A stretch of DNA of 54,632 nucleotides from a virus. Below, in pieces: positions 8,604 through 47,073 of this stretch. A program made the position numbers and the translations under genes. The notes beneath the pieces are model-generated. The model was not told where the DNA came from. It made no database searches and saw nothing but the letters and a program-made list of their open reading frames with translations. The stretch's first letter is position 1, and every line of letters starts with the position of its first letter. The DNA is taken from positions 1 through 54,632 of IMG/VR virus record IMGVR_UViG_3300017963_002387. One strand, written 5' to 3'.

Positions 8604-9065
8604 CTAGCTAGAAATGACCGTCGGTTCGACGTAACCCGCGCGGACAACAAAGCCCGCCGCGATCGGTCCGCCCGCGGACGCGTCCATGTTGGGAAACGTG
8701 ATCTGAGAAAGGACCCCGTTCGGGATCCGATACTGCTTTTCCCCAACCGCGCCGCCCTTCGGGGACCAACGCAAGCAAACCATGGGGGTGCATGTTGCCG
8801 CGTCCCATGCGTCTTCGATGGTTTCCCAGGCTTCGCCCGCGACTTCCGTATATACGATCGTCACAACGGCTTCAAAAGGCTGTTTCTTTCCGCCGCGAAT
8901 GATCGGTCGCATGCCGTCCAGGGTGTACGCTTCCCCTGTCATGCGATCCTGGGAAATCGGGTCCAGGGACGTCGAAGAACCGGAAATGTCGACCCAGGCG
9001 CCGTTACAACCGACGTCAATTTCCAGCTTTCCACAACCCAACGCTACAGCTTCGCTTGTCTGCAT
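8604..9065 (-). CDS. Major tail (tube) protein
   Basis: 153-aa beta-rich protein with the pattern of siphovirus tail tube proteins: a core N-terminal strand (GKLEIDVGCNGAWVDISGSS), a loop with GEAYTLDGMRPIIRGGKKQPFEAVVTIVYTE, and a C-terminal FVVRAGYVEPTVISS. It lies directly upstream of the tail chaperones and downstream of the tail terminator group, which is the canonical place. AAAGGAAA precedes the ATG. It polymerises as hexameric rings around the tape measure (family knowledge). Confidence 0.82.
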   Translation of the reverse strand: MQTSEAVALGCGKLEIDVGCNGAWVDISGSSTSLDPISQDRMTGEAYTLDGMRPIIRGGKKQPFEAVVTIVYTEVAGEAWETIEDAWDAATCTPMVCLRWSPKGGAVGEKQYRIPNGVLSQITFPNMDASAGGPIAAGFVVRAGYVEPTVISS

Positions 9066-9932: not shown

Positions 9933-10439
9933 TTACCTTGACGTAATCGCCTTGACAGCCCGATCGATTTCACGTTTGATCCGGGCTTGACTTTCGTCGA
10001 ACGCTTCCTGAAAGTATTTCTTTGCCTTGATTCCGCGTTTCGCGATCGACAGCCGCGCCTTGTATGCCAACGCGCCCGCCGCCTTCCGGTCCCCCTGGAC
10101 AACGCGAAGCGCCCATCTATAAATCGGTTCCCATGGGGGCCAGAATGGACGGGTCCCGAATTCCTGATATGGGGCATATTTCACATTTGATCCAACAATG
10201 CCGCGGATCGTTGTATGGTTCGGCTGTTCGACTTTAGGCGTGATACTTGCGCGAAGCCGCCCGCGATCGACCGGGACCTTCTTCTTTGCCTTCCCTTCGA
10301 CATATAGCATGGACCGCGCGACCGCGGACTGTAATTGACGTCCTGGAACTTGACCCGCGCCGCCCAAGTCGCGCGCGACCTGTTCAAGCTTCTTCTGGGT
10401 TTCTTTCAACCCCTTTACTTCGACGTCGACGCCGGACAT
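9933..10439 (-). CDS. HK97 gp10-like neck protein
   Basis: 168 aa starting at ATG 10439, which overlaps the connector stop as TAATG. The frame is open further upstream but that part is antisense-type sequence inside the connector gene, so this start is chosen. The family signature is clear: VEVKGLKETQKKLEQVAR, AKKKVPVDRGRLRASITPKVE, then VGSNVKYAPYQEFGTRPFWPPWEP. In HK97-type phages gp10 joins head completion to the tail terminator. Confidence 0.85.
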   Translation of the reverse strand: MSGVDVEVKGLKETQKKLEQVARDLGGAGQVPGRQLQSAVARSMLYVEGKAKKKVPVDRGRLRASITPKVEQPNHTTIRGIVGSNVKYAPYQEFGTRPFWPPWEPIYRWALRVVQGDRKAAGALAYKARLSIAKRGIKAKKYFQEAFDESQARIKREIDRAVKAITSR

Positions 10440-11086
10440 TATATCGCCGGGTTCACATGTCGACCCAGGATCAGGATCATTTTCACGTCGGGATCCAGTT
10501 CCTGAAGAAACGTCGGCTGTCCCAGTTCGATCGAAGCCAGCGAATCCGCCATTCCCCCCTGAAGCCGCTTCCACCAACGCGCCGTCTGCATAATCGCGGC
10601 TTCCTTTATGTCCGCCGGGACCGCCGCATAACCGCCAAAGTCCGCGGTCAGCTTGACAGTAAACAGCCTGAACTTTATGTCCCCCTTTGTCCAGATCGAA
10701 TAGTCTCCATTCGGATCCAGGAACAGAAGGTTATAAGGGGTCTTTAGCTGGGGTCGCCTATGATCCCCGTTTCCCGGGAAATAATCGCCGTCCCCAGCCC
10801 AGGGGGTTGACGGGTTCGACAGGGTTTCATACGTCGTATCGGTCATGGCGTCTTTCAGGTAAACCGCCGAAATCGAAACGCATTCGTCGACCCGTAACCA
10901 TGGCTGTCCGGTCCCGAAATAGTATTTCGTCGCTTCAGCCGCCAGAAAATAGTTGTCGGGACGATTACAAAAGCCGTCGATCGTCCGGGAAGCCGCTGTT
11001 ACAAGCTTTGCGATCGCGACGTCCGCGTCTGCGCCTTCCTTTTCGATCTGATTTTTGACTTCGGCTGTTGAACAGTAATCAGACAT
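10439..11086 (-). CDS. Head-tail connector (gp6-like adaptor)
   Basis: 215 aa. It begins with a helical gp6-type region (YCSTAEVKNQIEKEGADADVAIAKLVTAASRTIDGFCNRPDNYF), followed by a beta insertion (TKYYFGTGQPWLRVDECVSISAVYLKD) and ends with helices PADIKEAAIMQTARWWKRL and SLASIELGQPTFLQEL. This is the usual layout of the phage gp6-like head-tail connector that docks on the portal. It is coupled to the gp10-like gene by a TAATG overlap. Confidence 0.8.
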   Translation of the reverse strand: MSDYCSTAEVKNQIEKEGADADVAIAKLVTAASRTIDGFCNRPDNYFLAAEATKYYFGTGQPWLRVDECVSISAVYLKDAMTDTTYETLSNPSTPWAGDGDYFPGNGDHRRPQLKTPYNLLFLDPNGDYSIWTKGDIKFRLFTVKLTADFGGYAAVPADIKEAAIMQTARWWKRLQGGMADSLASIELGQPTFLQELDPDVKMILILGRHVNPAI

Positions 11087-11497: not shown

Positions 11498-14400
11498 CTA
11501 TGGTCGCGCGAACGTTGCGTCGACATGCTGGGCTGGGGTTGCGTTCGATCCCCAGAACATGCCCTGGGGGATATCGCCCGTAAAGTCGATCCCAGCCGCC
11601 GGGGAAACCGTGATCCTCAAAACGCCGTCGACATAAAGATATATTGAAACCCCAGTGTAAAAGACCCGGACGGTATAGGTTGTCCCCGCGACAATCGCGC
11701 CGCCGCCTGTCGCCCAGTCCGCCGAAGATGCGATTCCGCCGACCTGGACTTCAAGCCGAAGGTTGTCCGCCGCGGTCCAGTACAGCCGAATGTAATTCGC
11801 AACCGGACCCGCCGCCCAGAACACATGCGGGGTCGCGTTCCCCCAGTCGATTATATCGCTGTCATCATGCCGCGGGGTCCAGTTGAACATAACCAAACCA
11901 AAGGACGGGGCAAAATATCCGGCTGGGATCGGCTGTTGACAATCGTCGCGCCCGTCAACCCGCAAGCCTGTATCTTCCGCGCTGTTGGCTTCAGATGCGG
12001 GGGTGACGGTCAGGGTGATGGAATCCATGAGAATGGCAAACACATCGTCGGAATAAACTGGACCCGCGCCTGTTCCCGTAAGGCGAATCTTTGAGCCTGC
12101 GTCGTCGACAACGCGCATTACTTCGGTCCGAAATTGCCATGCGGCCCTATCCCCTTCTAGGTCTGCATCGGCGTTAGATACTTGCGGTGCCCAGTTGCGA
12201 TCAAACATTCGTGGCGACTCTGATCCATCCCCATATACCCAAACCCCCCAAGCCCAAAATTTCCCGTTGCTAGTCAAAACAAAATAGGACATTTGATCAA
12301 AGTTTGTTGCCGAAGCCGCCCATTCCAACGCTTCCGATCCGCTGTGTATGATCCCGCCGCCCGCTGTACTGGCTTGCGTATCGCCTGGATCAAGGCTTTC
12401 ATTTGCCCATCCAGTGATCAACTCAGGGTTGACGCCTTGCAAGCTCTCATGGTCGCCATTCGGCAAGACGCTAGGCATAACCTGTAGTTGGTGGATCTGC
12501 ATTACGCCTTCTGCGTTTATGTTCTCGATAAAGACCCGCAAGGTCGTGCAACCCGCCGGAACCTTGAAACAAAACGTTTCCGCCCATGGGTGTAAGCAGT
12601 AGGGTTCGTCAAAGCGAATCAGGAACACATCGTTTGTATCCCAGTCATTGTCCGTTCCGCCCGCAAGGTTCGCCGTGACAACGTCTTCGCTGTTGTCCGT
12701 AATGGTCGCTGAAGATCCATCCGTGATATTGTAGACCGTCGCGCCGATCAACGCGTCCGCGATCCATCGGGGGGACGTCGGCTGTAGGGTCGCCTGATTG
12801 TTCGCGCCCGCATGCGTCCCGTACAGCATAGGACCGTTGAATGTCACAACGTCCGCCGCGCCCGTTACGTCCCGAATGCGGACCCTGGGTCGCGCCCGAC
12901 CGTCCTGGTCAATCGCCAGAACAGGAAAGGCGACGTAATCATCCCCTGCGGTCACAGCCTGTTCGATATAGACCCCTTCCCCAGCCGCGTCGACGCCGAC
13001 ATTGTATCCGCCATTGTAGACCCTTGCCCCAGGTTCGTCGGTTGCCATGTCTGGGGTTGTGTTCCAGTATCCGTCGCCAAAGGTGATCGTGCCGTTGGCT
13101 GTGCCTGTCGCATCGGTCAAGGTTGTACCCGCGCCGTCGCGGAAGTTGAACTGGCGAAGGGTGTTCCCGTCCACCGCTGGCGGGTTTAGGCGATCTGGGG
13201 GGACAAAGGTGTCCGTGTAGCGAACGGAATCGGAAAGACGCGCCCAAGCACATGCGCCGTCATGATAATAGCCTCCCCCAGCGCCAAATATCCGCAAGTC
13301 GTGGGAAGCATCAGATATATAATTTCCTACAGATGCATCACTGGTATCCGCTAAAACACCGTCTACCCAAAGGTAGAGCTTCCTATCGCCACCTTCGTCA
13401 TATGTGATAGCAACGTGGTGAAAACGCTTGTCTGTATAGGAAAGGGCCGTGCGAGCTGTTGCACTCGTATCATCGTAATATACAGCCCCGATGAAAAGCC
13501 CTCCTGAATTGATATAGATCAGCCATCCAAACCCTTTATAGAAAAGCGTAGCGCTTCCGGCGGGTGGCTCCGAATCTATTCTAAACCATCCTTCGGCTGT
13601 AAACGCGCCGCCATCGGGAACGTCGTCAATATCAGCCGCCGATCCGCAGTTGACAAGCGTTGCCGATCCGTCCCCTTCCAGGCTGTACGGAATGACTGGG
13701 CTTCCGTCCTGTTCCCAAATGCTTGACCATGACCCATCCGTGATCGTCCCATCGTTCCCTGGGCTTGTGACTTGTGCCGCCGCTGTTGCGCCTGTGCCTT
13801 CGTCTATCAGCCAAGCTTCAATGGTATTCCCATCATTATAGATTGTACGTGGGGGAATAAAGTCAGTCCCATGGCTGTGACGATCATTGTCGCTGATCTC
13901 TACCCATGTAATAGCGCCTTCCCAAAACCAGCCACTAACGCGCCCGATGGTAAGGTCGTCCGATGCGTCCCCATCATACAGACCCACGCCCGCAATTTGA
14001 GTAGTATAGCTTGCTGCCCACTTGCCATCTACGGCAAGATAGATTTTCCGATCCCCCGTATCATCATAATATAGGGTGACAAGGTGCCACTTTCCATCAT
14101 GAAAAGAGTCTACATGGGGGAAGGCATCCGGCCATATCTGACTTTGCGCGTTTGTGTCCGCGCATTGAACCAGCCCGCGAATCCTTCCACTATCTGTAAA
14201 CGAAAGACTCCAAACTGTCCCTTTAGCCAAAACGCCATTAAAAGCGCTGGCATCACTGTCTGCCCGAACCCACGCGTCAACCGTAAACTCTGCCCCGCTG
14301 GGAATATCATCCAGGGTTGCGCCTGATCCGCAGTTTATGCCCGTGCTTGTCCCGTTGAATTCAACCGCATAGTCCGTTCCAGGCAAGCCGCCATCCCACA

Positions 14401-15277
14401 TGCCATGCACGTCTGGCAAGTTGTCAGCCCAGGGCCAAGACCATGCTTCGCCTGTTCCGGTTGTCAAGGCTTCGGCTGTACTGTCGGTGGGGAGACAGAA
14501 ACAAACGTCTTCTGAGCCTGTGACTTCGGTAGGATCACGTCCTGATCCCGCATTGTATATTTCGGTCAGTTCGTCCGTTGACGGTAGTTGGTAGGGGTTG
14601 CCTGTCTGGGGCAAGGTGCCATAACCGTTGTCATCGGTCAGAACACGGCGATAGACCGTCAAGCCTTCAATGATGGCGTCTGCTGAATTTCCTCCTGCAT
14701 AGTTCCCGAAGCGCGATTCCGAAGACACATTATCAGCAATCCACTCGGACGCTTGACCATAGGTATGGACGTTGTTGACCGATATACGAATATGATTTGT
14801 CCCGTCAATGGGGTTTTTCGAATCCCACGACAGGATCACGCAATAGGTCGTGCCAGCAGTCCATGCCGACACATCAATAGCAAGACCCGCAAACGGAATA
14901 CTCCCACGAAAGAACAGCCGATCATCGTCGTACTTGTAGATCGCTACATCCCCGAAAACGATCTGATAGTGGATCAGGCCGTCGTCCCCATCCCATTCTG
15001 GCGTGATCCAGAAGACGATGGTGCCCTGATATGGATCAAGGTTGGCGTAGCGAACTTCTGTCGCATTCCCCACCTGATCGCCACGGGGGAACGTCACAAC
15101 GTCTGAGGTTCCGGTGCCATCTAGCTTGCCCTGGACAATCGGGGCTGTATAGAAGGGACCCGCGCTGATCCGCTTGTCCATGGCGGGTGTAAACGTGACA
15201 AGATCCGGATCAAAGACGAACGTCGGCTGTCCGCCTGTCGGGTGTAAAAACTGGCTGTCCCTTGAAACGCGCGCCAT
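11498..15277 (-). CDS. Very large multi-LamG virion-surface protein
   Basis: 1259 aa. At least four concanavalin A-like (LamG) domains are visible: about 55-240 (DLDPYQ-type start, FWITPEWDGDDG), about 305-520 (FNGTSTGINCGSGATLDDIP, AEFTVDAWVRAD), about 540-740 (NCGSAADIDDVPDG, AFTAEGWFRID, HHVAITYDEGGDRKLYLWVDG), and about 1120-1255 (VRVFYTGVSIYLYVDGVLRI). About 950-1090 looks like a carbohydrate-binding beta-sandwich. Domains 2 and 3 are clear paralogues. It sits in the head module rather than the tail, so it may be a head fibre or capsid-surface adhesin. Codon and word usage in roughly 13.1-15.1 kb differs from the rest of the window, suggesting recent domain acquisition. Confidence 0.75.
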   Translation of the reverse strand: MARVSRDSQFLHPTGGQPTFVFDPDLVTFTPAMDKRISAGPFYTAPIVQGKLDGTGTSDVVTFPRGDQVGNATEVRYANLDPYQGTIVFWITPEWDGDDGLIHYQIVFGDVAIYKYDDDRLFFRGSIPFAGLAIDVSAWTAGTTYCVILSWDSKNPIDGTNHIRISVNNVHTYGQASEWIADNVSSESRFGNYAGGNSADAIIEGLTVYRRVLTDDNGYGTLPQTGNPYQLPSTDELTEIYNAGSGRDPTEVTGSEDVCFCLPTDSTAEALTTGTGEAWSWPWADNLPDVHGMWDGGLPGTDYAVEFNGTSTGINCGSGATLDDIPSGAEFTVDAWVRADSDASAFNGVLAKGTVWSLSFTDSGRIRGLVQCADTNAQSQIWPDAFPHVDSFHDGKWHLVTLYYDDTGDRKIYLAVDGKWAASYTTQIAGVGLYDGDASDDLTIGRVSGWFWEGAITWVEISDNDRHSHGTDFIPPRTIYNDGNTIEAWLIDEGTGATAAAQVTSPGNDGTITDGSWSSIWEQDGSPVIPYSLEGDGSATLVNCGSAADIDDVPDGGAFTAEGWFRIDSEPPAGSATLFYKGFGWLIYINSGGLFIGAVYYDDTSATARTALSYTDKRFHHVAITYDEGGDRKLYLWVDGVLADTSDASVGNYISDASHDLRIFGAGGGYYHDGACAWARLSDSVRYTDTFVPPDRLNPPAVDGNTLRQFNFRDGAGTTLTDATGTANGTITFGDGYWNTTPDMATDEPGARVYNGGYNVGVDAAGEGVYIEQAVTAGDDYVAFPVLAIDQDGRARPRVRIRDVTGAADVVTFNGPMLYGTHAGANNQATLQPTSPRWIADALIGATVYNITDGSSATITDNSEDVVTANLAGGTDNDWDTNDVFLIRFDEPYCLHPWAETFCFKVPAGCTTLRVFIENINAEGVMQIHQLQVMPSVLPNGDHESLQGVNPELITGWANESLDPGDTQASTAGGGIIHSGSEALEWAASATNFDQMSYFVLTSNGKFWAWGVWVYGDGSESPRMFDRNWAPQVSNADADLEGDRAAWQFRTEVMRVVDDAGSKIRLTGTGAGPVYSDDVFAILMDSITLTVTPASEANSAEDTGLRVDGRDDCQQPIPAGYFAPSFGLVMFNWTPRHDDSDIIDWGNATPHVFWAAGPVANYIRLYWTAADNLRLEVQVGGIASSADWATGGGAIVAGTTYTVRVFYTGVSIYLYVDGVLRITVSPAAGIDFTGDIPQGMFWGSNATPAQHVDATFARP

Positions 15278-15814: not shown

Positions 15815-15961
15815 CAATATAACCGCGATCGCCGTCGTCGACAGGGACGTCAAGCCGAACAGGACCCATGCCGCGATCGGGAAGTCCGTCACGACGCGTC
15901 CCCAGCGAACCCGGATCTGTTCCGGCTGTCCTTTCTTGTTTACGCCGAATAAAGTGTTCAT
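15794..15961 (-). CDS. 55-aa single-pass membrane protein
   Basis: A short gene with ATG at 15961 overlapping the TGA of the upstream gene (ATGA) and ending at TAG 15794. The first 30 residues are hydrophilic (NKKGQPEQIRVRWGRVV); about 31-52 form one hydrophobic helix (WVLFGLTSLSTTAIAVILLI) and the tail is ERLF. It is the last gene of the coupled glycan-modification block; an internal promoter lies over its 3' end. The function is unknown; an accessory to membrane-bound modification enzymes or a lysis protein would both fit its size. Confidence 0.65.
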   Translation of the reverse strand: MNTLFGVNKKGQPEQIRVRWGRVVTDFPIAAWVLFGLTSLSTTAIAVILLIERLF

Positions 15962-16593
15962 GTCGGTTCCTCTTCATACCACTGAACGACGATAGACATG
16001 GGCTGATCCGATCCCGCGCGGTTCGTCAAGCATAGGATATAGTCGCGCCCTGGACCCAGAACCCATTCTTCATTCGCCCGAACTGTTCCGCCGCCCGCCC
16101 GGGGACCCGTTCCGCCCGGTTCAAAGTCGTTATATAGCTGAACGCCTGGGTCCGCGATTGTTGGTGTATGGTAAACGTCGACCTGGGCCTTATGGGACGT
16201 TTTGTTTCGGTTCATATTGACGGACGCGATCAATGTCCCGTCGTCTGTTAGGGTTGGGTTTTCATACAGACAAACTTCCATATCGCCGCCGCCCGCGGCA
16301 TTCCATGATGTATGCCCCTGAACGTCCGCCGGGACCCGAATCAGGAACTGAAGGGAATTATTGTCCCCGATCGGGGACGCGTCTGGGGTTTTATAGGACG
16401 CTGAAAAGTGATTCCCTTTGTGGATTTCATGATGCACGTAATCAATAACCGTAAGCGCAAGCCCAACGCTGTCGACCGAAAGCCCGCCGCCGATGTAAAC
16501 CGCCGGGGCAAAGACGCCGGATTCGATTTCATACCAAAGGACCCGATCCGCGCCTTCAAGGGGCTGGGTCCGCTGTTCCGGTCGCTTTGACAT
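15958..16593 (-). CDS. Putative head decoration/fibre beta protein
   Basis: 211 aa. The central part is a beta-sandwich with the order YVHHEIHKGNHFSASYKTPD, NSLQFLIRVPAD, ASVNMNRNKTSHKAQVDVY, ANEEWVLGPGRDYILCLTNRAG and QPMSIVVQWYEEE. Proteins with an H-x-I-H-x-G-x-H-F motif and this ending recur next to capsid genes in uncultured siphoviruses and are generally annotated as head or decoration proteins; this is family memory and not certain. It follows the sulfotransferase genes with TAATG coupling, so it is also a candidate substrate of the modification cassette. Confidence 0.6.
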   Translation of the reverse strand: MSKRPEQRTQPLEGADRVLWYEIESGVFAPAVYIGGGLSVDSVGLALTVIDYVHHEIHKGNHFSASYKTPDASPIGDNNSLQFLIRVPADVQGHTSWNAAGGGDMEVCLYENPTLTDDGTLIASVNMNRNKTSHKAQVDVYHTPTIADPGVQLYNDFEPGGTGPRAGGGTVRANEEWVLGPGRDYILCLTNRAGSDQPMSIVVQWYEEEPT

Positions 16594-17399
16594 TATTCCC
16601 CCAGGACCCAGCGCCCGTCAACCTGGGTCCATGAATTCTCTTCCTGTTCGACGTTGTATCCCCAGCCTTCGCGCGCCAACCGTTCCCGAAGCGCCGTCCA
16701 GTTCCCAAACATTTCCCAAAGGGGAACAGGGAATTCGCGTTTCAAGTCAACCCGAAGGGGAACATTGTCAACGCCCAAGAACTGACAGACGCGCGCGCGT
16801 TCCCGGGGATTCATTTCCTGGACCGATCCCCCAGCCCCGCCGCGGACCATGTCTTCATAGAACACTTCAATATATTCGCCGTCGAATTCTTTCTTCAGCC
16901 GATCATGTCCCCGCTTCCGTTCGCTTGCGATCCGCTTGACGGCATATGCCGCATAATCAAGATCCATGGTCGCCTGGGGGACGTCGCGTTCCCTGAAGCT
17001 ATGGACCGGGTGATATTCCAGGTTCCGCCCGCGGACTTGCTGTTGGTAAGCATAGGACAACGCCTGTCGCAAAAGCGATCGCCGCTGAAGGTGTATGATT
17101 TTAGGCTGAACTTTCTGGATCGTAGGCCATACTTTTTCATGGAACGCCTGTCGATAGATCAGCCGAAAGCCGGACGCGAAATAACCCGTCTGATTCCAAA
17201 GCATGACCATAAGTCGATCCGGCTTGATCTTCGCCTTGCGCCAGATCGACGCATGATGCATGACTTCGCCGCGATCGCAAAAAACCGACGGGTGATTCGA
17301 CAGCGCATGAGCGCAAAAGGTCCCCCCTGTCCGGACATGCGCCAGAATCAAAAACGGGGTCGCGATATCTTTGGTTTCGTCATTGTCTATTCGCGCCAT
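16593..17399 (-). CDS. Sulfotransferase-like enzyme B
   Basis: 268 aa. A PAPS-dependent sulfotransferase fold is suggested by the first strand and loop PFLILAHVRTGGTFCAHALS (5'-phosphosulfate-binding P-loop-like RTGGT), a following NHPSVFCDRGEVMH, and the 3'-phosphate-binding region KIIHLQRRSLLRQALSY with Arg and Ser in the expected positions. The C-terminal part has YIEVFYEDMV and VCQFLGVDNVPL, shared with the neighbouring enzyme. It starts inside the end of the upstream sulfotransferase gene (13-nt overlap). The acceptor could be a glycan built by the adjacent glycosyltransferases or a virion protein; neither is shown. Confidence 0.75.
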   Translation of the reverse strand: MARIDNDETKDIATPFLILAHVRTGGTFCAHALSNHPSVFCDRGEVMHHASIWRKAKIKPDRLMVMLWNQTGYFASGFRLIYRQAFHEKVWPTIQKVQPKIIHLQRRSLLRQALSYAYQQQVRGRNLEYHPVHSFRERDVPQATMDLDYAAYAVKRIASERKRGHDRLKKEFDGEYIEVFYEDMVRGGAGGSVQEMNPRERARVCQFLGVDNVPLRVDLKREFPVPLWEMFGNWTALRERLAREGWGYNVEQEENSWTQVDGRWVLGE

Positions 17400-18085
17400 A
17401 GGTCCGCCCAGTCGTTTCGCTTCAGCATATCCGCGATTTCCTTCCAGTTGGTGTAATAGGTTTCAGTCGCCCGTTTATGCATCTTCCGATTGTCCGCGTA
17501 CAAAGGACGGCGAATAACGCCCAGGAACTGACAGATCCGCCCTGTTTCCCCCAGGGGAATAGACCCGTTCGCCTGTTGGGTTATGTCTTCGTATCGAACT
17601 TCAAGAATTTCGCAGTTCTGTTGTACGCCGCGAAGGAACGCGCGCCGCTGTTGGTTCAGCCGCTTGATCCGGTTGGCAACGTCCGCCGGGATCGCGTCCA
17701 GGACTTCATTGTCCACAAAGGACCCATCAAAGACATGCCGCGGGATCCCATTCCGGATTTCCTGTTTCGCCAGAAGGACGCTTGTCACGGTTGGCATAAT
17801 CGCCCGCGTCAAGTGAAGGATCTTGACTTCGTTATTGACAAGGTATTCCATGACGCCCGGGTGTAGCGCCTGATCATAGGTCAGCCGACAAGCCGCGACC
17901 TTGTAATAGGGTTCTGTTAGGACAAGGTCCAGGATCCGGACCGGACGCTTCCCGATATGCTGAACCCATGTCGCCTGGGGTCGAAGGGGTTCTTCCCGGG
18001 GACAGTGTATGTCCCGATGGTTCGACAGACAGCCCGCAAAGTACAACCCGCCCGACCGCTGGGTCGCGACAATGACCGCCTTCAT
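17387..18085 (-). CDS. Sulfotransferase-like enzyme A
   Basis: 232 aa from ATG 18085, which overlaps the methyltransferase stop as ATGA; the open frame extends upstream but only antisense to the methyltransferase. The P-loop-like segment VIVATQRSGGLYFAGCLSNH near residue 5, the segment VKILHLTRAIMPTVTSVLLA, and CEILEVRYEDI / ICQFLGV match the sulfotransferase pattern and the next gene, with which it is a diverged pair. The usual His/Arg catalytic arrangement is not certain. A TTCCCC-GGGGAA palindrome lies inside the gene at 17546. Confidence 0.7.
   Translation of the reverse strand: MKAVIVATQRSGGLYFAGCLSNHRDIHCPREEPLRPQATWVQHIGKRPVRILDLVLTEPYYKVAACRLTYDQALHPGVMEYLVNNEVKILHLTRAIMPTVTSVLLAKQEIRNGIPRHVFDGSFVDNEVLDAIPADVANRIKRLNQQRRAFLRGVQQNCEILEVRYEDITQQANGSIPLGETGRICQFLGVIRRPLYADNRKMHKRATETYYTNWKEIADMLKRNDWADLWRE
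17546..17559. repeat. TTCCCC-CA-GGGGAA palindrome, copy 2
   Basis: Inside sulfotransferase A, the one copy that reads TG at the centre on the transcribed strand. Confidence 0.75.
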
Positions 18086-18552
18086 GTTCCGTCCCAACCT
18101 TCCGGCTTTTTGATCAGGTTCCAGTAAAAGGACGTCGGACGCTTCTTTTTGTTCGCCCAACGCTTCAGAATATGCCATTTGTACGGGGTGTAAAAGCTGT
18201 AATCCCTTCCCCGCTGGGTTGTCGGGTCCAGTTGGTCCATGATCCCGGGTCCGACTTTGTGAATATGCGTCAAGTCTTCCCAGGTAACGTTCGCCTTCCA
18301 GAAAGGAAGCTTGACGACGCAAAGCCCGCCAAGTTCCGTAATCCGCCAGATTTCGTTCATGGACGTAAGCAGATTATGGTAAAGGTGTTCCAGGACCGAA
18401 AACGCGTAAACGCGCGCGAACTGTCCGTCTTCCCATGGCCATGGTAGATCGTTCAAGTCCCATGCCACGTCGATCGCCTTCGAATGCTGGGTTATGTCAT
18501 GGTTGATCGAATCGTCCAGGATTCGGTTCCCCGCGCCCAGGTTCAGATTCAT
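18082..18552 (-). CDS. SAM-dependent methyltransferase (type 11-like)
   Basis: 156 aa. The N-terminus MNLNLGAGNRILDDSINHDI carries the class I motif I (LNLGAGNR), acidic residue DITQHSKAIDVAWDLNDLPWPW follows, and FARVYAFSVLEHLYH gives the post-motif strand with LEHL typical of the Methyltransf_11 family. It is short but has all core strands. AGAAAGGG precedes the ATG. In glycan gene clusters such enzymes O-methylate sugars; that role here is inferred from its neighbours. It overlaps the upstream 63-aa frame by 56 nt. Confidence 0.8.
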   Translation of the reverse strand: MNLNLGAGNRILDDSINHDITQHSKAIDVAWDLNDLPWPWEDGQFARVYAFSVLEHLYHNLLTSMNEIWRITELGGLCVVKLPFWKANVTWEDLTHIHKVGPGIMDQLDPTTQRGRDYSFYTPYKWHILKRWANKKKRPTSFYWNLIKKPEGWDGT

Positions 18553-18688
18553 GTATGCCCTTTCTGTATGCCCGCGCCAAGTGTTCCGCGATCCGGGCTT
18601 CGACTTGTTCGATATCGCGATCGTATCGCAAGCCCAACCGTTGACAAAGATCGTTCACGATTTCCGCCGCCCGCGCGCGCGCGTTCAC
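18497..18688 (-). CDS. 63-aa helical protein, GTG start
   Basis: A GTG at 18688 overlaps the TGA of the upstream glycosyltransferase (GTGA). The protein begins NARARAAEIVNDLCQRLG and has a long charged helix DIEQVEARIAEHLARAYRKG; the rest is Gly/Pro-rich. It overlaps the start of the methyltransferase by 56 nt in another frame. The tight junction and helix-like composition support a real coupled gene, but the overlap makes this uncertain. Function unknown. Confidence 0.45.
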   Translation of the reverse strand: MNARARAAEIVNDLCQRLGLRYDRDIEQVEARIAEHLARAYRKGIHESEPGRGEPNPGRFDQP

Positions 18689-20355
18689 TGTCCATGCTTT
18701 CTCATATAATCGTCGACCATGTCCCATGCGACCTTGTCGGTCAGCCCGTATCCTTCCGGGACCTGTCCGGTCCAACGCCGCGCCCGACCAACAAAATGAA
18801 GGACGCCCGCCGACCCTTTCTTTCCGGGGGGATATTCCTTCCCCTTCAGGGTGATCAGGGTATTCCATTCGTTCCCCAGCCATAGGACCCGGATCGGGTC
18901 AGAGTATAGCGCCCGGATCAAAGCGCCCTGATCGCGTCCCTGGTATTTGTTCCATTCGGCGAACCATCGAACCATGAATGCTTCCGCCGCCGGACAGCGC
19001 CGGAATCCCCAAACCCCGCCATTGATCTGAAGACTTTCCGCGGTCCCGATCTTCTGGATCGTCTTCATATACTCTTCGCGATTGTTCGACCTTTGGAAAT
19101 CGTCCAGGGTATCATGAAGATGCGCGTCTTTGCAGATTATGAATTCCCAGCCCATGTCAAGCCATCGGAAATACTGTTCGACGTCGGCATGGACGATTTC
19201 AATATCCGCGTCCAGGTATAGGATCGATTCCCATTCCGCCGGGGCAAAATCGTAAGCCTTCAGCTTTGCGATCCGCCCGCCTATATCTTTGTCCGGTTGC
19301 TTGATCAGGATATGTTCTGGACCCAGCTTCCGATCTGAACACAACGCGACCGGGATCCCGGGAAGGTTCGCCCGGATCGTTTTGATCGCGATCTTTGCCG
19401 CGTCCCGGGCTGGGTCCCCAAACGCGACCATATAGATCCCGCGCCGCCCATCGGACGAATCGATCGCCTGAAGCCGGGGTTTGTCATAAAGGAACCCTTC
19501 GAATGCTTCCCGGTTCGCGTCGACCCAAGCTTCGACCGCATGCGGCTTTGTCGTTTCCCGAAGAGCTTCCCGATCGACCGTATCGAATCCGCCCAACGCC
19601 TTCCCGAATGCCCGCTTCAGGCTTTTGTAATCGCCCGCGGTATAGCGATATATCCCATGGACGTCGGGAATGCTATCATGGATCCCAACCCCAACCGGGA
19701 TCACAACCGGGACGCCGCATGATAGGGCTTCCAGGGTTGTCATGGGTCCGCCTTCGACCGTCGACGTACAGACAAAGACGTTCAGGGACTGATAAAACGC
19801 TGGCATGCCGTCCCAGGTGTATTTCTTTGTGGGGCAAGGCCAACCGCGACCGGACGCCTTGAACTGGGCTTCCTTCTGAAAGTCCTGGACAAGCGCCGAA
19901 GCCAGTTCTTCCCCCTTGCGCCCGCTTTTGTATCGGAAGCCGGAAAAGCCCGCGACCGGAAGTGTTCCGCTGGGCTGGGGGACAATGACAAAGCGATCGG
20001 TTTCCAGGGGAAGGGGGAAAACGAACGTCTTCCCGTAAAGGGGTTCAATAAGCGCCCTTGTCTGTTCGTTCATACAGACGCGAAGGGTTGAATTCTTTGC
20101 CGCCGCATGGAACAGCCGGACCTTTGCCGATTCCGCCGCGTCCGCGTCTTCAAGATGCGTCAAATAAGCGACCGTCGGGGTCGCGTCGAACCGCGGGGCT
20201 TTCTGATATTCAAAGTATCCCAGCCAGTAATTCAAGTCCGCGGACGGGTCCGGTCGATCGGACGCCTTCCAACCGAACGCGTCCATAAGGTAACGCGCGA
20301 ACCGGGGGATAACCCGATCGTCTGTCCAGTTCCGGCATACGATATGTACCTTCAT
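18685..20355 (-). CDS. Two-domain glycosyltransferase (GT-B plus GT-A fusion)
   Basis: 556 aa from ATG 20355, which forms ATGA with the upstream 48-aa gene. Residues 1-295 are a GT4-like GT-B half; the nucleotide-sugar site motif STVEGGPMTTLEALSCGVPV is at about 199-217. Residues about 305-556 are a GT-A half with a DxD motif in LYLDADIEIV (Asp382/Asp384), later NGGVWGFRR and RDQGALIRAL, like GT8-type enzymes. Two transferases in one chain suggest sequential addition of two sugars. The second half is related to the separate 203-aa enzyme upstream. Confidence 0.85.
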   Translation of the reverse strand: MKVHIVCRNWTDDRVIPRFARYLMDAFGWKASDRPDPSADLNYWLGYFEYQKAPRFDATPTVAYLTHLEDADAAESAKVRLFHAAAKNSTLRVCMNEQTRALIEPLYGKTFVFPLPLETDRFVIVPQPSGTLPVAGFSGFRYKSGRKGEELASALVQDFQKEAQFKASGRGWPCPTKKYTWDGMPAFYQSLNVFVCTSTVEGGPMTTLEALSCGVPVVIPVGVGIHDSIPDVHGIYRYTAGDYKSLKRAFGKALGGFDTVDREALRETTKPHAVEAWVDANREAFEGFLYDKPRLQAIDSSDGRRGIYMVAFGDPARDAAKIAIKTIRANLPGIPVALCSDRKLGPEHILIKQPDKDIGGRIAKLKAYDFAPAEWESILYLDADIEIVHADVEQYFRWLDMGWEFIICKDAHLHDTLDDFQRSNNREEYMKTIQKIGTAESLQINGGVWGFRRCPAAEAFMVRWFAEWNKYQGRDQGALIRALYSDPIRVLWLGNEWNTLITLKGKEYPPGKKGSAGVLHFVGRARRWTGQVPEGYGLTDKVAWDMVDDYMRKHGQ

Positions 20356-20498
20356 GACAGTCCTTTCAGTTCCGTAATCGCCCAGCCAAAGACCAACGCC
20401 CAGACGAATCCGAACAGTATCACGTTTCCGCCCGTTGCCAACCCCAACAGCGCGACCAACAAAGCGAACAAAGCCAACAATGGATCCGCCGCCTTCAT
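20352..20498 (-). CDS. 48-aa hydrophobic membrane protein
   Basis: This short gene is joined by ATGA overlaps on both sides (ATG 20498 to the upstream glycosyltransferase stop, TGA to the downstream ATG 20355). Its sequence is nearly all hydrophobic: DPLLALFALLVALLGLA, a short GGN turn, then VILFGFVWALVFGWAI, i.e. two likely membrane helices in a hairpin, ending TELKGLS. It may anchor the glycosyltransferases to the membrane or act as a small holin-like protein; both are inference. Confidence 0.65.
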   Translation of the reverse strand: MKAADPLLALFALLVALLGLATGGNVILFGFVWALVFGWAITELKGLS

Positions 20499-21106
20499 GC
20501 GCGCGCCCGCCCAAACAAGTGCGCGATAATGCCGCCGCCATTCCAGGGTTTGCCCAGAAGCCAAAGCCGAACGGGGATTTCGATCAATGCCCGAAGGAAT
20601 GCGCCTTGATCCTGTCCCCGAAAGCGAAGCCATTCGCGCCGCCAAACACTGAAGAACTGCACGATCCGGATCGACTTTCGGAAGAACATGACGCCGCATT
20701 GTATTTGTAACACATCATAAGCGCCCGCCTTCTTCAAGGTCGCTTCTTTGTCTTCCCGAGACACATGCCACAACAGCCGCGCGCCCTGATTTTCCGACGT
20801 GACAAGCGCCATGTCCCAGCCCCTGTCCAGAATGTCAAAGCCCGCCGACAAGTCCCCGTAAACCCGAGTATCCGCGTCCAGGTATAGCGTATGGTCAAAG
20901 GGGGACAGCTTGTCCAGGTTGACTTTCGCCCAGCGCGATTTCTGGACGTCTGTAAAGCCGGACATGTCCCCCAGTTCCGCCGAATCGGATCCGATCATGG
21001 CGATCGGAAGATCCGGCATGTGTTTCTTCAGGCTTTGGGACGCTTCCCAGTATTCCGAAAGCGCCCGGGACCCGTAAGCGATATATACCGCGCCGCGGGT
21101 TGTCAA
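20495..21106 (-). CDS. GT-A glycosyltransferase (GT8-like)
   Basis: 203 aa. The pattern GAVYIAYGSRALSEYWEASQSL at the start, HTLYLDADTRVYGDL (DxD, Asp77/Asp79, metal and nucleotide-sugar binding), IQCGVMFFRKS and RGQDQGAFLRAL closely follows GT8-like or phage nucleotide-diphospho-sugar transferases. It is homologous to the C-terminal half of the neighbouring 556-aa enzyme, so a duplication is likely. Sugar and acceptor cannot be told. Confidence 0.85.
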   Translation of the reverse strand: MTTRGAVYIAYGSRALSEYWEASQSLKKHMPDLPIAMIGSDSAELGDMSGFTDVQKSRWAKVNLDKLSPFDHTLYLDADTRVYGDLSAGFDILDRGWDMALVTSENQGARLLWHVSREDKEATLKKAGAYDVLQIQCGVMFFRKSIRIVQFFSVWRREWLRFRGQDQGAFLRALIEIPVRLWLLGKPWNGGGIIAHLFGRARA

Positions 21107-21118
21107 GGTTCAGCCTTT

Positions 21119-21802
21119 CTATTCTTCTGTATATCGGGGACCCGCTGTCCAGGTAACGGGAAGCGCACAAAGGATCGGACGGGTTCGGAAAACAGCCCGC
21201 AAAAAGGACAGCCGCCGATCGTCGCCTTCCTTATGCTCTTCTTTCCAGACGTCGAACAGTTCGTCCGTTTGGGGACAGCGCGCGACATACAACAGCCCGG
21301 GGTTATAGACCGGGACGCGCAAGTCCTGGACAACGTCCAGGGTCCGTTTCTTTTCGTCGTCTGATCCCAAGTGTAACGCAAGGGCCTTATATCGCCATAG
21401 GGGACATGCGACTTGCCAACCATGCTGAACCCTATGAAAGCCGACTGGCATAAGTTCACGGCGAAGCGAAACATTCGGATCCCAAAACAGGGTTGAACCA
21501 TAGGGACGCCCGGAAAACAGGGTCCCAACCTGGACGCCCATGCCGTCCCATGTTCCGTCGACAAAGCCCGTCGCGGATTCCGGGTCCGCTGGGTCGACAA
21601 TTACGACGCCCGAATTTCCCCAGTCCGCGACCTGATTTCGAATGTCCTTCCGGGGGATTTCGCATTCCCCAGCCGCAAGCATAACGCGCGCGTCATGTTT
21701 GCCAACCTGGACCCATTCCCCGGCTTCATGCTTTTGCATTCGCGCATGTTCGTCTTTCAGGTATTTCGCGGACAACAGACGAACCCAGACAAAGACAGAC
21801 AT
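21119..21802 (-). CDS. First gene of the glycan cassette, possible glycosyltransferase-related protein
   Basis: 227 aa, ATG preceded by GAAAGGG. Residues 1-75 (HEAGEWVQVGKHDARVMLAAGECEIPR) resemble a small domain found near phage head genes. Residues 80-227 (SGVVIVDPADPESATGF, RELMPVGFHRVQHGWQVACPLWRY, VPVYNPGLLYVARCPQTDELFDVW) have the NPGLLYV strand and following helix seen late in GT-A transferases, but no DxD is obvious. It could be a degenerate transferase or an acceptor protein. A long hairpin with the TTCCCC palindrome in its loop precedes it. Confidence 0.6.
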   Translation of the reverse strand: MSVFVWVRLLSAKYLKDEHARMQKHEAGEWVQVGKHDARVMLAAGECEIPRKDIRNQVADWGNSGVVIVDPADPESATGFVDGTWDGMGVQVGTLFSGRPYGSTLFWDPNVSLRRELMPVGFHRVQHGWQVACPLWRYKALALHLGSDDEKKRTLDVVQDLRVPVYNPGLLYVARCPQTDELFDVWKEEHKEGDDRRLSFLRAVFRTRPILCALPVTWTAGPRYTEE

Positions 21803-21817
21803 TATATCCCTTTCGGA

Positions 21818-21880
21818 AGGAAGCCGGGACCCGTCCCGTTTCCCCTGGGGGAATACCCGGGGACGGGTCCTGGACTTCCT
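21818..21880 (-). promoter_or_regulatory. Long hairpin upstream of the glycan cassette
   Basis: Arms GGACCCGTCCC (21827-21837) and GGGACGGGTCC (21860-21870) are perfectly complementary. They extend outward through a G-T pair and CC/GG to AGGAAG (21818) and CTTCCT (21880). The loop contains the TTCCCC-TG-GGGGAA palindrome. It lies in the 88-nt gap between the 145-aa gene and the cassette. It could be a processing signal, a partial terminator or a protein site; no T-run follows in the direction of transcription. Confidence 0.6.
21840..21853. repeat. TTCCCC-TG-GGGGAA palindrome, copy 3
   Basis: In the loop of the hairpin before the glycan cassette; reads CA on the transcribed strand. Confidence 0.75.
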
Positions 21881-21890
21881 TCAGCCGGAT

Positions 21891-22328
21891 CTAGTCTACG
21901 ATTTCGCTGATCAGGGTTGTCGAAACGGGTTCATAGCCAGCGACAAAGCCCCAAAGGGTCGCGCTGTATTCGACCGCATCGGTCCCCACGGTGATCAGGG
22001 GGGAAATGAAGTCGTAACCGGGGGTCAGTTCTTCCCCGCGAAGTTCGATCAGAACGACTTCGTTCCCGTCGCCGCCCGCCTGGGTCAACTGGGTAATTGC
22101 TTTCCCGGCGATATTCGCCATGTTCGATCCAGCCGCGTTTGTGCATTCGCGAATGACAGCGTCCAGGGTCGCGCCCTGGGCCATGTCCCCGACGTCGATC
22201 ACTAGAACGAACCGATCGTGATCGCCCGCGGTAACGGGACCCAGCGCATGCGCGCCCGCCGCTAGGCTGTCGGCATGTTCGACCGCCAACAGTTCATATC
22301 CTTCGCTGAAACGTTCGCAGAAATCCAT
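21891..22328 (-). CDS. Capsid-adjacent protein, possible decoration protein
   Basis: 145 aa from ATG 22328, chosen because AGGAG lies seven bases upstream; an upstream in-frame ATG falls inside a hairpin. Segments YELLAVEHADSLAAGAHALGPVTAGDHDRFVLVIDVGDMAQGATLDAVIREC and KAITQLTQAGGDGNEVVLIELRGEEL are alternating helix and strand, ending SATLWGFVAGYEPVS. This matches a short family found immediately after HK97-type capsid genes in many phages, which usually gets a capsid-associated label. Exact role unknown. Confidence 0.65.
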   Translation of the reverse strand: MDFCERFSEGYELLAVEHADSLAAGAHALGPVTAGDHDRFVLVIDVGDMAQGATLDAVIRECTNAAGSNMANIAGKAITQLTQAGGDGNEVVLIELRGEELTPGYDFISPLITVGTDAVEYSATLWGFVAGYEPVSTTLISEIVD

Positions 22329-22346
22329 GATTGTATCTCCTATGCT

Positions 22347-22368
22347 GGGGGACCCTTTCGGGTCCCCC
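22347..22368 (-). promoter_or_regulatory. GNRA-tetraloop hairpin before the 145-aa gene
   Basis: On the transcribed strand a 9-bp stem GGGGGACCC/GGGTCCCCC closes a GAAA tetraloop. It lies between the capsid gene and the next start, with AGGAG just downstream. It belongs to a repeated family of GGGACCC hairpins placed before ribosome binding sites. No T-run follows, so it is more likely a stabilising or processing element than a full terminator. Confidence 0.7.
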
Positions 22369-22390
22369 ACTACAGCCGACTTATGTCAGC

Positions 22391-23728
22391 TTATGAAGTC
22401 GGGTGAATTCCCAGGATCACGAACGGCGAAACCTGGGTCGTTCCGTCGCTGTACGTCAACGGAAGATCCAGCCACGGTCGCCCGCCAACCCGAGAAACAG
22501 CGCGCCATGCCGTCAAGTCGTTCTGGAATCGGAAATGCTTCGAAGCGTCAACCGTAACCGCCTGTCGATCCCCGATCAGATATTTCGACCAGTCGCAAAG
22601 CGCAACCGATCCCACTTCGCCGGGTTGCGGCATATGTTCGCTGAAGAAAACAGGATACCCGAACAGCGAACCCGGGACGCCGTCGCGCGCGCTGGGCATA
22701 AAGACATAGGACGGATTCCCAGCCGGACCGTTCAGTTCGATCAAGTCGGACATCCACTGTCGCGACATCATCCAGATCGGGGAACGCCCGACAAAGGCTT
22801 CCAGCATGTCCGCAAAGTCCGATACCGCGATCGCGCCGATCGCCGCCGGGGGGATCGTGATCGTCCCAGGTGCGGGGATAATCCCCAGGGGCTGTCCAGC
22901 GCCCGTCCCCTGAACATAGGCATGTTCTTTATACCAGTCGATCGCGCCGCCGAATGCCGAATTCAGGAACGCTTCCAGCGAAACGGCATTGTCCATAAGC
23001 AGTTCGTCGCTTGCTTCAGTGTACAAAGCCAGCTTGAACGCGGTCAGATTGATCCGCCTGAAGGACGGCTGGGTTTCGTCCTTTTCAGTCGCTTCTTCGG
23101 TCCATTTGGCGATGATCCCGCCAAACCAGTGGGGCTGTCCGGCTGTCGTCGCGCCCTGATTCAGCGCCGGAAGCTGGATCTGTCGACGCCGCATCGGGAT
23201 CACGGTTGCCCGCGGGGTAACGACACTGTCCGTTCCGCCCGGGTGAACCAACAGGCTTTCGCCTTGCTGTACTGGGACAAGATACCCGCCGGACGCGCCG
23301 ACGGATTCCAGAAGGTCTTTGCTGTCGCCCGGTTCAACCCAGCCGATCTTCGTTTCGTCGACCGCGGGTTCTTCCGGATCGCGCCAACGCTTCAGCCCGG
23401 GGTGAACCGACTTGCGCCCAAACTCAGCATTGAACACTTCGACCAACAGCCGACCCAGCGAACCGATCTGCTTTGCCGGACGATCGCCGCCGCGATTTTC
23501 GACCTTCGCGGTCCCCATAAGGGCCTTTTCCGATTCGGCGATCTGGACAAGGCTGTCGATTTCGCTTTTGATATCGTCGACCCGCGCCAGCATGCGGGTT
23601 GCCTTTTCCCGATCTTGCGCGTCCGCCTTTTCGTTCAGAAAGATTTCCTTCGCGTCGCGAATCAGCTTCTGACCTTCGTTCCGAAGTTCGTCGACGCGAT
23701 CGCCCACGATCATCATTTGTTCAGCCAT
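22391..23728 (-). CDS. Major capsid protein (HK97 fold)
   Basis: 445 aa. Residues 1-80 form a charged coiled coil (delta-domain scaffold: ELRNEGQKLIRDAKEIFLNEK, ARVDDIKSEIDSLVQIAE), normally removed by the protease. The mature part has ASGGYLVPVQQGESLL, an RINLTAFKLALYTEASDELLMD spine region, GQPLGIIPAPGTITI, WMMSRQWMSDLIEL and DWSKYLIGDRQAVTVDAS, all hallmarks of HK97-type capsids. It follows the protease gene by two bases. Start ATG at 23728 is followed by MAEQMMIV. Confidence 0.95.
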   Translation of the reverse strand: MAEQMMIVGDRVDELRNEGQKLIRDAKEIFLNEKADAQDREKATRMLARVDDIKSEIDSLVQIAESEKALMGTAKVENRGGDRPAKQIGSLGRLLVEVFNAEFGRKSVHPGLKRWRDPEEPAVDETKIGWVEPGDSKDLLESVGASGGYLVPVQQGESLLVHPGGTDSVVTPRATVIPMRRRQIQLPALNQGATTAGQPHWFGGIIAKWTEEATEKDETQPSFRRINLTAFKLALYTEASDELLMDNAVSLEAFLNSAFGGAIDWYKEHAYVQGTGAGQPLGIIPAPGTITIPPAAIGAIAVSDFADMLEAFVGRSPIWMMSRQWMSDLIELNGPAGNPSYVFMPSARDGVPGSLFGYPVFFSEHMPQPGEVGSVALCDWSKYLIGDRQAVTVDASKHFRFQNDLTAWRAVSRVGGRPWLDLPLTYSDGTTQVSPFVILGIHPTS

Positions 23729-46088: not shown

Positions 46089-46354
46089 TCGCCTGTTACG
46101 AAGGATATGAGGTCGTGGAATCTTTGGTGTATGGTCAAAGACCGCGCGCCAAGTTCACGATGCATGGACCGAAGGGATCATGTACGGTAATTTGCGTCGT
46201 ATCCTGGGACCTGTTCGATCTTGTCGAAGCCGGGGACCCGGTCATAATTGATTCCATGGCGAAAATGGCAATTATGGAATACGAAGAAACGGACCCGCCC
46301 GCGATCCATAATACGGGACGTCTGTTCAGCGCATCGGGAAAGGACCCGGCATGA
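46085..46354 (+). CDS. Uncharacterised protein, 89 aa
   Basis: ATGA-coupled. IACYEGYEVVESLVYGQRPRAKFTMHGPKGSCTVICVVSWDLFDLVEAGDPVIIDSMAKMAIMEYEE: small beta-barrel-like. Sits between helicase and methyltransferase. Unknown. Confidence 0.6.
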   Translation: MIACYEGYEVVESLVYGQRPRAKFTMHGPKGSCTVICVVSWDLFDLVEAGDPVIIDSMAKMAIMEYEETDPPAIHNTGRLFSASGKDPA

Positions 46355-47073
46355 AGTTCGATCACATAATCGCCGATCCGAACTGGCATTACAATCAGCG
46401 CCTGAACGAAGGGTTCGGGGGGACCCGGACAAAGTTCGGGAACGGGGCTGAAGGGCATTATAACCTATCGGGACTTGACGAAATCTGTTCCATGCCAGTC
46501 CCGGAAATCATGGCCGACGACTGTTTCGTTCACTTATGGACAACGGGTCCCCATTTCTTCGACGCCGGACCCGTCCTGGAAGCCTGGGGCTGTACGCCTA
46601 TAACGTTGGAATTCGTCTGGGTCAAGCTGACAAAAGGGTTTCTGGAAGAGGTTCGATCGAAACCGCTGTTCGTCGCGGATCTGATTCAGCGCCGGAACCT
46701 TCATGATCTGTTGGTCCGCGGAATCCATAAGCGCCCGGGGCATTACACGGCTTCGAACGCTGAACTGGTCGTTCTGGGAAAGAAAGGGAAGCCGTCGCTT
46801 CCTGAAGTGAAAATGTTCCCCCAGGTTTTCTTTACGGTCCCGGGGGACCATTCCGAAAAGCCCGACAACGTTCATGAATATGTAGAAGCCGCATATCCGG
46901 GGCAAAGATACGCTGAACTGTACGCCCGCCGCATGCGCCCAGGCTGGGTAACGCTGGGGAACGAAGTCCCGGGACAAGACGGGATCGACATGCGCGATTC
47001 GATCCCCTATATCGGTAGGGCAAAGGAACCGCGGATTTCCGAACTGTTGGAATTGCTTGACGAAAGGATCTGA
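46351..47073 (+). CDS. MT-A70 family adenine methyltransferase with DPNW motif
   Basis: 240 aa. HIIADPNWHYNQRLN carries the catalytic motif as DPNW (residues 9-12) instead of the usual DPPW, then GHYNLSGLDEICSMPVPEIMADDCFVHLWTTGPHFFDA, LEFVWVKLTKG, GIHKRPGHYTASNAELVVLGKKG and HSEKPDNVHEYVEAAYPGQRYAELYARR, all family hallmarks. It should place N6-methyl groups on adenine in DNA, protecting the phage or marking its DNA. The P-to-N change is a conservative member of the (D/N/S)PP(Y/F/W) group but lies in the key position. Confidence 0.85.
   Translation: MKFDHIIADPNWHYNQRLNEGFGGTRTKFGNGAEGHYNLSGLDEICSMPVPEIMADDCFVHLWTTGPHFFDAGPVLEAWGCTPITLEFVWVKLTKGFLEEVRSKPLFVADLIQRRNLHDLLVRGIHKRPGHYTASNAELVVLGKKGKPSLPEVKMFPQVFFTVPGDHSEKPDNVHEYVEAAYPGQRYAELYARRMRPGWVTLGNEVPGQDGIDMRDSIPYIGRAKEPRISELLELLDERI

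Follow-up and report, generated by a model that had tools for sequence, protein, structure and literature searches.

A sulfotransferase-bearing glycosyltransferase cassette behind a phage capsid gene and its candidate role in virion glycosylation

The 54,632-nucleotide viral record IMGVR_UViG_3300017963_002387, from an uncultivated tailed phage and analyzed here over its full length (the window), carries behind its major capsid protein (MCP) gene a cassette of glycosyltransferases (GTs), a methyltransferase (MT), and two sulfotransferases (STs). These phage-encoded enzymes are proposed, with fair probability, to glycosylate the virion on the C-terminal Ser/Thr of the MCP and the tail-tube protein and then to cap the glycan with methyl and sulfate groups. 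Observed here are the enzyme families and folds, purifying selection, a conserved gene order, and terminal Ser/Thr residues on specific virion proteins; that sulfate ends up on a glycan, and not on tyrosine for instance, is an inference.

Enzymes of the cassette

The cassette and the flanking virion genes all lie on the minus strand, the cassette being read from 21802 to 15958, with a transcription order of MCP and then proteins of 145, 227, 203, 48, 556, 63, 156, 232, 268, and 211 amino acids (aa). The relevant features are as follows.

22391-23728, minus strand: MCP, C-terminus ...GIHPTS, proposed acceptor (PF05065, 134.8 bits)
21891-22328, minus strand: 145-aa conserved protein after the MCP, ATG at 22328 (phrog_28483, E 5e-21, a phrog without assigned function; searches used the region 21891-22331)
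21119-21802, minus strand: DxD-less homologue with a GT-A fold and an extended N-terminus, 227 aa (hhalign, AlphaFold 2 (AF2), VIA)
20495-21106, minus strand: GT-A (GT8-like) glycosyltransferase, 203 aa, TTG start, DADTR motif (alignment; weak GT8)
20352-20498, minus strand: 48-aa hydrophobic protein (ATGA overlaps; 19-residue hydropathy of 2.25)
18685-20355, minus strand: bifunctional glycosyltransferase, 556 aa, GT-B (GT4-type) plus GT-A with DxD (Pfam, alignment, IMG/VR homologues)
18497-18688, minus strand: 63-aa protein, GTG start, GTGA overlap, function not assigned
18082-18552, minus strand: S-adenosylmethionine (SAM)-dependent methyltransferase, 156 aa (Methyltransf_11; phrog_6636, E 1e-8)
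17387-18085, minus strand: sulfotransferase 1, 232 aa (Sulfotransfer_3; paralogue of sulfotransferase 2)
16593-17399, minus strand: sulfotransferase 2, 268 aa, fold like that of Stf0 and tyrosylprotein sulfotransferase (TPST) (AF2 model, Foldseek, VIA, invariant residues, dN/dS)
15958-16593, minus strand: 211-aa protein, ends ...EEEPT (phrog_5335)
10439-11086, minus strand: head-tail adaptor that closes the interval on its far side (phrog_442, E 1.6e-11)
8604-9065, minus strand: presumed tail-tube protein, 153 aa, C-terminus ...PTVISS, proposed acceptor (position before small genes and a presumed tape measure)

From the 203-aa gene downstream, all junctions overlap: by ATGA at 20495-20498, 20352-20355, and 18082-18085, by GTGA at 18685-18688, by TAATG at 16593, and by 13 bases at 17387-17399. 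The sole gap, of 12 bases, separates the 227-aa and 203-aa genes. The coupled modification-enzyme cassette described in the initial annotation of this DNA is thus present in the sequence, on the minus strand. Inverted repeats that are G+C-rich and, by eye, have no clear T tracts lie between the MCP and 145-aa genes (22330-22390) and between the 145-aa and 227-aa genes (21803-21890), and may set expression of the cassette below the capsid level.

In the 556-aa fusion, the GT4-type domain scores 35.0 bits in Pfam relative to a cut-off of 27, with both Glycos_transf_1 and Glyco_trans_1_4 above cut-off. The GT8-type domains of the fusion and of the 203-aa protein score below the Pfam threshold (18.5 and 11.7 vs 24.3), and the DxD motif is kept in four of four aligned fusion members and in five of five aligned members of the 203-aa family, there as DAD. 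For the 227-aa protein, Pfam and PHROGs give no convincing family score. Its profile aligns with the 203-aa family with an hhalign probability of 98.6 (E 1e-15), and its AF2 model (pLDDT 93.2) adopts a GT-A fold. Comparison of this model by VIA gives a Z score of 9.7 to blood-group-type/alpha-1,3-galactosyl transferases, including one metal-independent bacterial enzyme, and of 9.3 to the capsid glycosyltransferase of PBCV-1 (2p72); the Foldseek matches are by themselves weak (best E 1e-3). The DxD motif is found in 0/37 members of the 227-aa family. Since metal-independent GTs exist and loss of DxD does not prove inactivity, sequence and model are consistent with either a pseudoenzyme or a metal-independent transferase. 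With this protein included, there are three GT-fold genes with four domains, so the GT enzymes named in the initial annotation stand and its count of two genes with three domains does not.

The SAM methyltransferase assigned earlier is borne out by a Methyltransf_11 score of 22.2 bits vs a Pfam cut-off of 21.2 for the 156-aa protein. The description of the small products as membrane proteins holds for the hydrophobic 48-aa protein, which alone among the cassette products has a clear membrane-type stretch, and fails for the 63-aa product, which is not clearly hydrophobic and shows zero amino-acid changes relative to a near relative.

Of the two STs, the product of 17387-18085 reaches 28.3 bits for Sulfotransfer_3 (Pfam cut-off of 27). 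That of 16593-17399 is under the Pfam cut-offs for both Sulfotransfer_3 (19.4 vs 27) and Stf0 (16 vs 22), and a PDB sequence search with it returned no match. The two proteins are paralogues with 30% identity (E 7e-22). The AlphaFold model of the 268-aa ST, built from a 16-sequence alignment, has a pLDDT of 89.1 and a pTM of 0.87. A Foldseek search with this model places Stf0 (1tex) at the top (E 2e-6), with tyrosylprotein and heparan 3-O-sulfotransferases among the next matches. All 24 PDB matches with E <=0.001 and all 50 VIA rows are sulfotransferases, a count that includes Teg12, Teg14, and StaL, which we take to be such enzymes. VIA-align results in a tie between Stf0 (1tex, Z of 13.4) and TPST (Z of 13.0), and the identity to known sulfotransferase structures is 16-20%. 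Among the viral models of BFVD, eight match at E <=0.001, with named phage sulfotransferases among the best.

The residues R23, G25, H36, R43, E45, R106, and Y181 are invariant in 31/31 ST family members with a length of 200 aa or more, made up of the window's two STs and 29 relatives. R23, E45, and R106 presumably correspond to the 5'- and 3'-phosphosulfate-type residues conserved in sulfotransferases that depend on 3'-phosphoadenosine 5'-phosphosulfate (PAPS). Based on sequence and model, both STs belong to the PAPS-type sulfotransferases, with sulfate transfer from PAPS itself predicted. Relative to a ~96%-identical relative, the ratio of nonsynonymous to synonymous substitution rates (dN/dS) is 0.15 for ST2, 0.19 for ST1, 0.15 for the MT, 0.07 for the GT fusion, and 0.27 for the MCP; the values of 0.07-0.19 indicate that the enzymes are maintained by purifying selection. 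The two sulfotransferase-like proteins, and with them the glycan-building set of GT fusion, DxD-bearing GT-A enzyme, MT, and STs that had been proposed from motifs, are confirmed at the level of predicted families and folds. Adenylylsulfate (APS) kinase was found in 0/30 records examined, many being fragments, and PAPS is therefore probably host-supplied.

Gene order in relatives

In a tblastn search of 50,697 GenBank phage records, no match was found for either ST, the fusion GT (at E 1e-5), or the 227-aa protein. The 203-aa GT gave weak matches only in Synechococcus phages (45 records; 23.5% identity among the matches listed), and the MCP has relatives in 150 records, with <=35% identity among the 30 matches listed. 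Loci of IMG/VR relatives (designated by L numbers) were collected by capsid scans, a GT-fusion scan (81 matches, of which 80 were kept, giving at least 79 loci), and an ST scan (37 loci), and two genome contigs were added. When grouped by shared 60-mers, the window and the 151 loci form 99 groups, with an ST in 33 of them. Genes of the relatives were called greedily on the plus strand, a procedure that missed the window's own MT.

A total of 38 intervals are closed by an MCP and a head-tail adaptor. The fusion and the 227-aa homologue are each present in 38/38, an MT in 27/38, and an ST in 19/38, one of the last (L020) with only an 87-aa ST fragment. The count for the fusion is partly by construction, as many loci were found through the fusion scan; the 227-aa protein was never an IMG/VR scan query. 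Because some loci came through the ST scan, the fairer figure for the ST is 7/25 closed intervals, one with a fragment, obtained once ST-scan-only loci are removed. For the fusion, the capsid-scan counts are fairer for the same kind of reason: among the 20 groups from capsid scans that extend 4 kb or more downstream, a GT-like gene is present in 18, the fusion in 15, and an ST in 6. In 32 of the 33 ST groups, the ST follows the fusion at a distance of no more than nine genes, and the 145-aa protein stands beside the block in 15/38 intervals, all from one clade. The synteny with capsid genes expected from the window is thus seen in IMG/VR relatives, where the block lies between the capsid and the head-tail adaptor. 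This conserved place in the virion block makes a virion target more likely than the host envelope or DNA, in line with the earlier preference.

Cassettes of other relatives encode sugar epimerases, a DegT aminotransferase, a formyltransferase, additional methyltransferases, and enzymes of the GT2/GT4 type; no family was found for two of the ten proteins scanned. The cassette is a glycan locus of variable content. One such cassette, L115:17497-19924, has a DegT sugar aminotransferase and a formyltransferase, genes which suggest that the L115 virion carries N-formyl amino sugars. The GT genes of the module are also found near other heads, in L152 (fusion-ST-MT-227-type), L078, and L033. The terminase and portal labels of L152 and all gene names of L072 were assigned by eye, and no capsid gene was recognized in the stretch of L072 that was read. 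L152 (QMWS01000002.1) is a contig of a 'Thermoprotei archaeon' metagenome-assembled genome (MAG) and groups with the viral IMGVR_UViG_3300014911_000013; its presence in an archaeal MAG is probably due to mis-binning or a hint of the host. One genome-contig scan with a single short pattern identified only two MAG contigs, both viral-looking, and the GT fusion was matched in 2/298 and 1/197 class members, starting genomes included. A tyrosine integrase is present in 4/16 records, so some relatives are probably temperate; none was found in the window.

Terminal Ser/Thr on virion proteins

The identity of the last residue was tested in every protein family that occurs in eight or more contigs (25 families), and only three stand out. 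The MCP ends in Ser/Thr in 74/84 members (72/82 under another length filter), despite a variable preceding tail, a 135-aa family does so in 18/18, and a 116-aa family in 19/24. The next family in rank reaches 6/22, and the background is 11% (135/1209) among mechanically called open reading frames, a count that contains the tagged tail and completion proteins. These tagged proteins are the 135-aa and 116-aa families. From one member each, the latter two families could be named as the tail tube (135 aa; PF06199) and the head-completion protein (116 aa; PF05521). In the window-type clade, terminal Ser/Thr is observed in 45/46 MCPs and in 7/7 of the 153-aa presumed tube proteins, the tube proteins all with Ser. 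The window's 153-aa protein has no match in Pfam or PHROGs and is named from its position; hhalign detects no relationship between its family and the PF06199 tubes (probability of 0.2). In L131, similar ends occur on three unrelated proteins (LESGS, EESGS, and TEVGS). Other head types show comparable ends: EEGS on the L152 MCP (PF05065), LESGS on the L033 MCP (PF03864), and, in L078, VEST on the MCP (PF25209), NEAT on the cement protein (PF09956), and EEET on a presumed tube protein (weak phrog_158). Among control MCPs, which comprise 18 of the 150 matching GenBank records and were drawn from the 30 listed with five Caulobacter records represented by two, 2/18 end in Ser/Thr (Fisher p 3e-10, relatedness ignored).

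Several observations weigh against these termini being the acceptors. The control MCPs are distant (23-35% identity) and may come from phages with glycosyltransferases of other kinds, and the Ser/Thr pattern was first noticed in MCP ends and tested afterwards. At 50% single-linkage, the MCPs fall into nine clusters, five of which are all Ser/Thr, so relatedness weakens the MCP count. In module-bearing contigs, 8/75 MCPs are without terminal Ser/Thr (six end in -LA, plus L086 and L088), and five of those eight contigs carry an ST. The head-completion-type protein of L152 is untagged and two unassigned L152 proteins end in Ser; the module contigs L072, L080, L071, and L053, in which the capsid gene is unrecognized, give no support. 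In the window, the 48-aa, MT, and 211-aa proteins also end in Ser/Thr (5/28 window proteins in all). Finally, in L117 and L122, which are long and have no recognized module, two of three MCP-labelled proteins end in Ser.

These last Ser ends, together with the 145-aa protein conserved beside the block in one clade, would fit an explanation in which the terminal Ser/Thr is an assembly constraint and the glycan goes elsewhere on the virion, for example to an internal loop or to the 145-aa protein itself. We consider this unlikely, as the end is common to two tube families with no detectable relationship, to MCPs of three Pfam families, and to a head-completion protein, is found on few of the control MCPs, and is matched by the ends of virion proteins of mycobacteriophage Che8 (see below).

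Two other proteins, the 211-aa and LamG proteins, had been named in the initial annotation as the candidate glycan carriers, and neither is retained in that role. In IMGVR_UViG_3300029267_000807 (~96% identical), the 211-aa gene is deleted and both STs are kept, and among the fetched contigs this gene occurs only in the window and its near-identical contig. Because a close relative keeps the cassette without that gene, the 211-aa protein is dispensable and was rejected as the acceptor; with its EEEPT end, it may be an accessory one. It matches phrog_5335 and proteins from two phages, one of Methylophilales and one of Roseobacter. The LamG protein (11498-15277) ends in -ARP, without a terminal Ser/Thr, and has no same-size counterpart in the shortest intervals, such as that of L131. 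Its gene is mosaic relative to that of L004, although the rest of the stretch compared between the two phages is ~96% identical; such mosaicism would be expected of a protein that binds receptors or lies at the surface. Judged from their sequences, the C-termini of the MCP and tail-tube proteins fit as acceptors far better than either.

At the scale of the whole window, the sign of the GC skew switches near 34 kb, between minus-strand late genes (1-34000) and plus-strand early genes (34000-54632), the latter including DnaB (44491-45903), MT-A70 (46351-47073), and ERF (48603-49475).

Proposed pathway, other explanations, and known systems

In the proposed pathway, the block would be expressed together with the structural genes. 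The soluble 203-aa GT-A enzyme and the GT-B/GT-A fusion, helped by the DxD-less 227-aa homologue, would place a short glycan on the Ser/Thr that ends the MCP and the tail-tube protein. Capping of this glycan would follow, by the methyltransferase with SAM and by the two STs with host PAPS. The result would be a negatively charged, methylated virion coat bearing sulfated sugar, and the benefit may be altered adsorption or shielding from capsid-recognizing defenses or enzymes.

The glycan could instead be a capsule- or lipopolysaccharide-like one of the host envelope, modified in the infected cell so as to exclude superinfecting phages or alter receptors. Sets of GTs, methyltransferases, and sulfotransferases also occur in surface-polysaccharide clusters, and the tyrosine integrases of some relatives (4/16 records) would be in agreement with such a role. 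This explanation is nonetheless quite improbable: the cassette lies among virion genes, flanked by those for capsid and adaptor, the window yielded no tyrosine integrase, a membrane-type stretch is clear only in the 48-aa product, and the terminal Ser/Thr of the virion proteins would be left unexplained. Gtr-type envelope modification was rejected, as its marker, the GtrA flippase (PF04138), was found in 0/16 records (control 7/14; records may be incomplete).

Equally improbable is that the STs sulfate protein side chains, namely virion tyrosines, independent of any glycan. The tie between TPST and Stf0 in the fold comparison (Z of 13.0 vs 13.4) weighs against the glycan reading and makes tyrosine sulfation a possible activity. 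The STs are, however, embedded in runs of GT and mostly also methyltransferase genes, and an optional ST with nearly constant GTs is as expected for a capping step. Hypermodification of phage DNA bases by the cassette is very improbable: DNA-glycosylating phage GTs are known (cited in an excerpt of PMC12619734), but the genes here lie in the virion block, away from replication genes, and the marker gene, a thymidylate-synthase homologue (PF00303), was found in 0/16 records (control 9/14; records may be incomplete), while a Tet/JBP search carries no weight as its control was silent.

Glycosylation of the virion thus remains the preferred explanation, and the cassette is most likely, by analogy, a Che8-like virion-glycosylation locus whose enzymes differ and which adds a sulfation/methylation step. 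Freeman et al. (2023) reportedly described glycosylated virions in mycobacteriophages, namely Che8 and its relatives. According to PMC12619734, glycans of mycobacteriophages are seen where the capsid and tail-tube subunits end C-terminally, and PMC11256854 names Che8 as bearing glycans on its major capsid protein. The Che8 MCP ends in ...FNKTGS and its major tail protein in ...YSDGS, whereas the other six proteins read in the block have no terminal Ser/Thr. Both systems have phage-encoded glycosyltransferases, and the -GS ends of Che8 are like those of many proteins in module phages; the ends of the window MCP (...PTS) and presumed tube (...ISS) share the C-terminal Ser. In contrast, no homology to the Che8 transferases was found, the fusion GT matching no GenBank phage record, and the GT genes are behind the MCP gene here and, as reported, near the 3' end in the Che8 relative Maravista. 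The present set also differs by its DxD-less GT homologue, methyltransferase, and sulfotransferases.

The 268-aa ST shares with the bacterial Stf0/Sulfotransfer_3 enzymes the fold, the N-terminal conserved Arg/Gly and Glu, and a second conserved Arg, but differs in its low identity (16-20%) and in scoring below the Pfam cut-off; the single-pattern genome scan described above likewise gave only viral-looking contigs. Capsid glycosylation in the chlorella virus PBCV-1 likewise uses virus-encoded GT-A enzymes, one of which (2p72) matches the 227-aa fold; PBCV-1 is an unrelated virus, and 37/37 members of the window's 227-aa family are without DxD. Phage-encoded sulfotransferases with the same fold are found in BFVD, for example in Synechococcus phage S-SCSM1. 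OM43 phages have sulfotransferase-family genes (PF13469) whose function the authors call unclear (PMC10580990); the ST described here differs in lying within a conserved glycan cassette. In the literature searched (mostly open-access), no paper linked phage sulfotransferases to virion glycans and none described a C-terminal serine tag.

A broader idea, to which we give even chances, is that of a portable tag. Unrelated virion proteins ending in Ser/Thr, often as E-x-G-S, and including several capsid families, tail tubes, head-completion proteins, and cement proteins, would be recognized by a transferable module (the DxD-less GT homologue, the GT-A enzyme, and the GT-B/GT-A fusion) that builds lineage-specific, methyl/sulfate-capped glycans. 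If so, phage sulfotransferases would gain a defined role and the final residues of a virion protein would predict its glycosylation. For the STs described here, the context is a glycan cassette that is conserved and swappable and follows the capsid gene, together with specific proposed acceptor ends. If the proposed glycosylation is correct, sulfated virion glycans would exist in phages, which would bear on adsorption, stability, and immune recognition.

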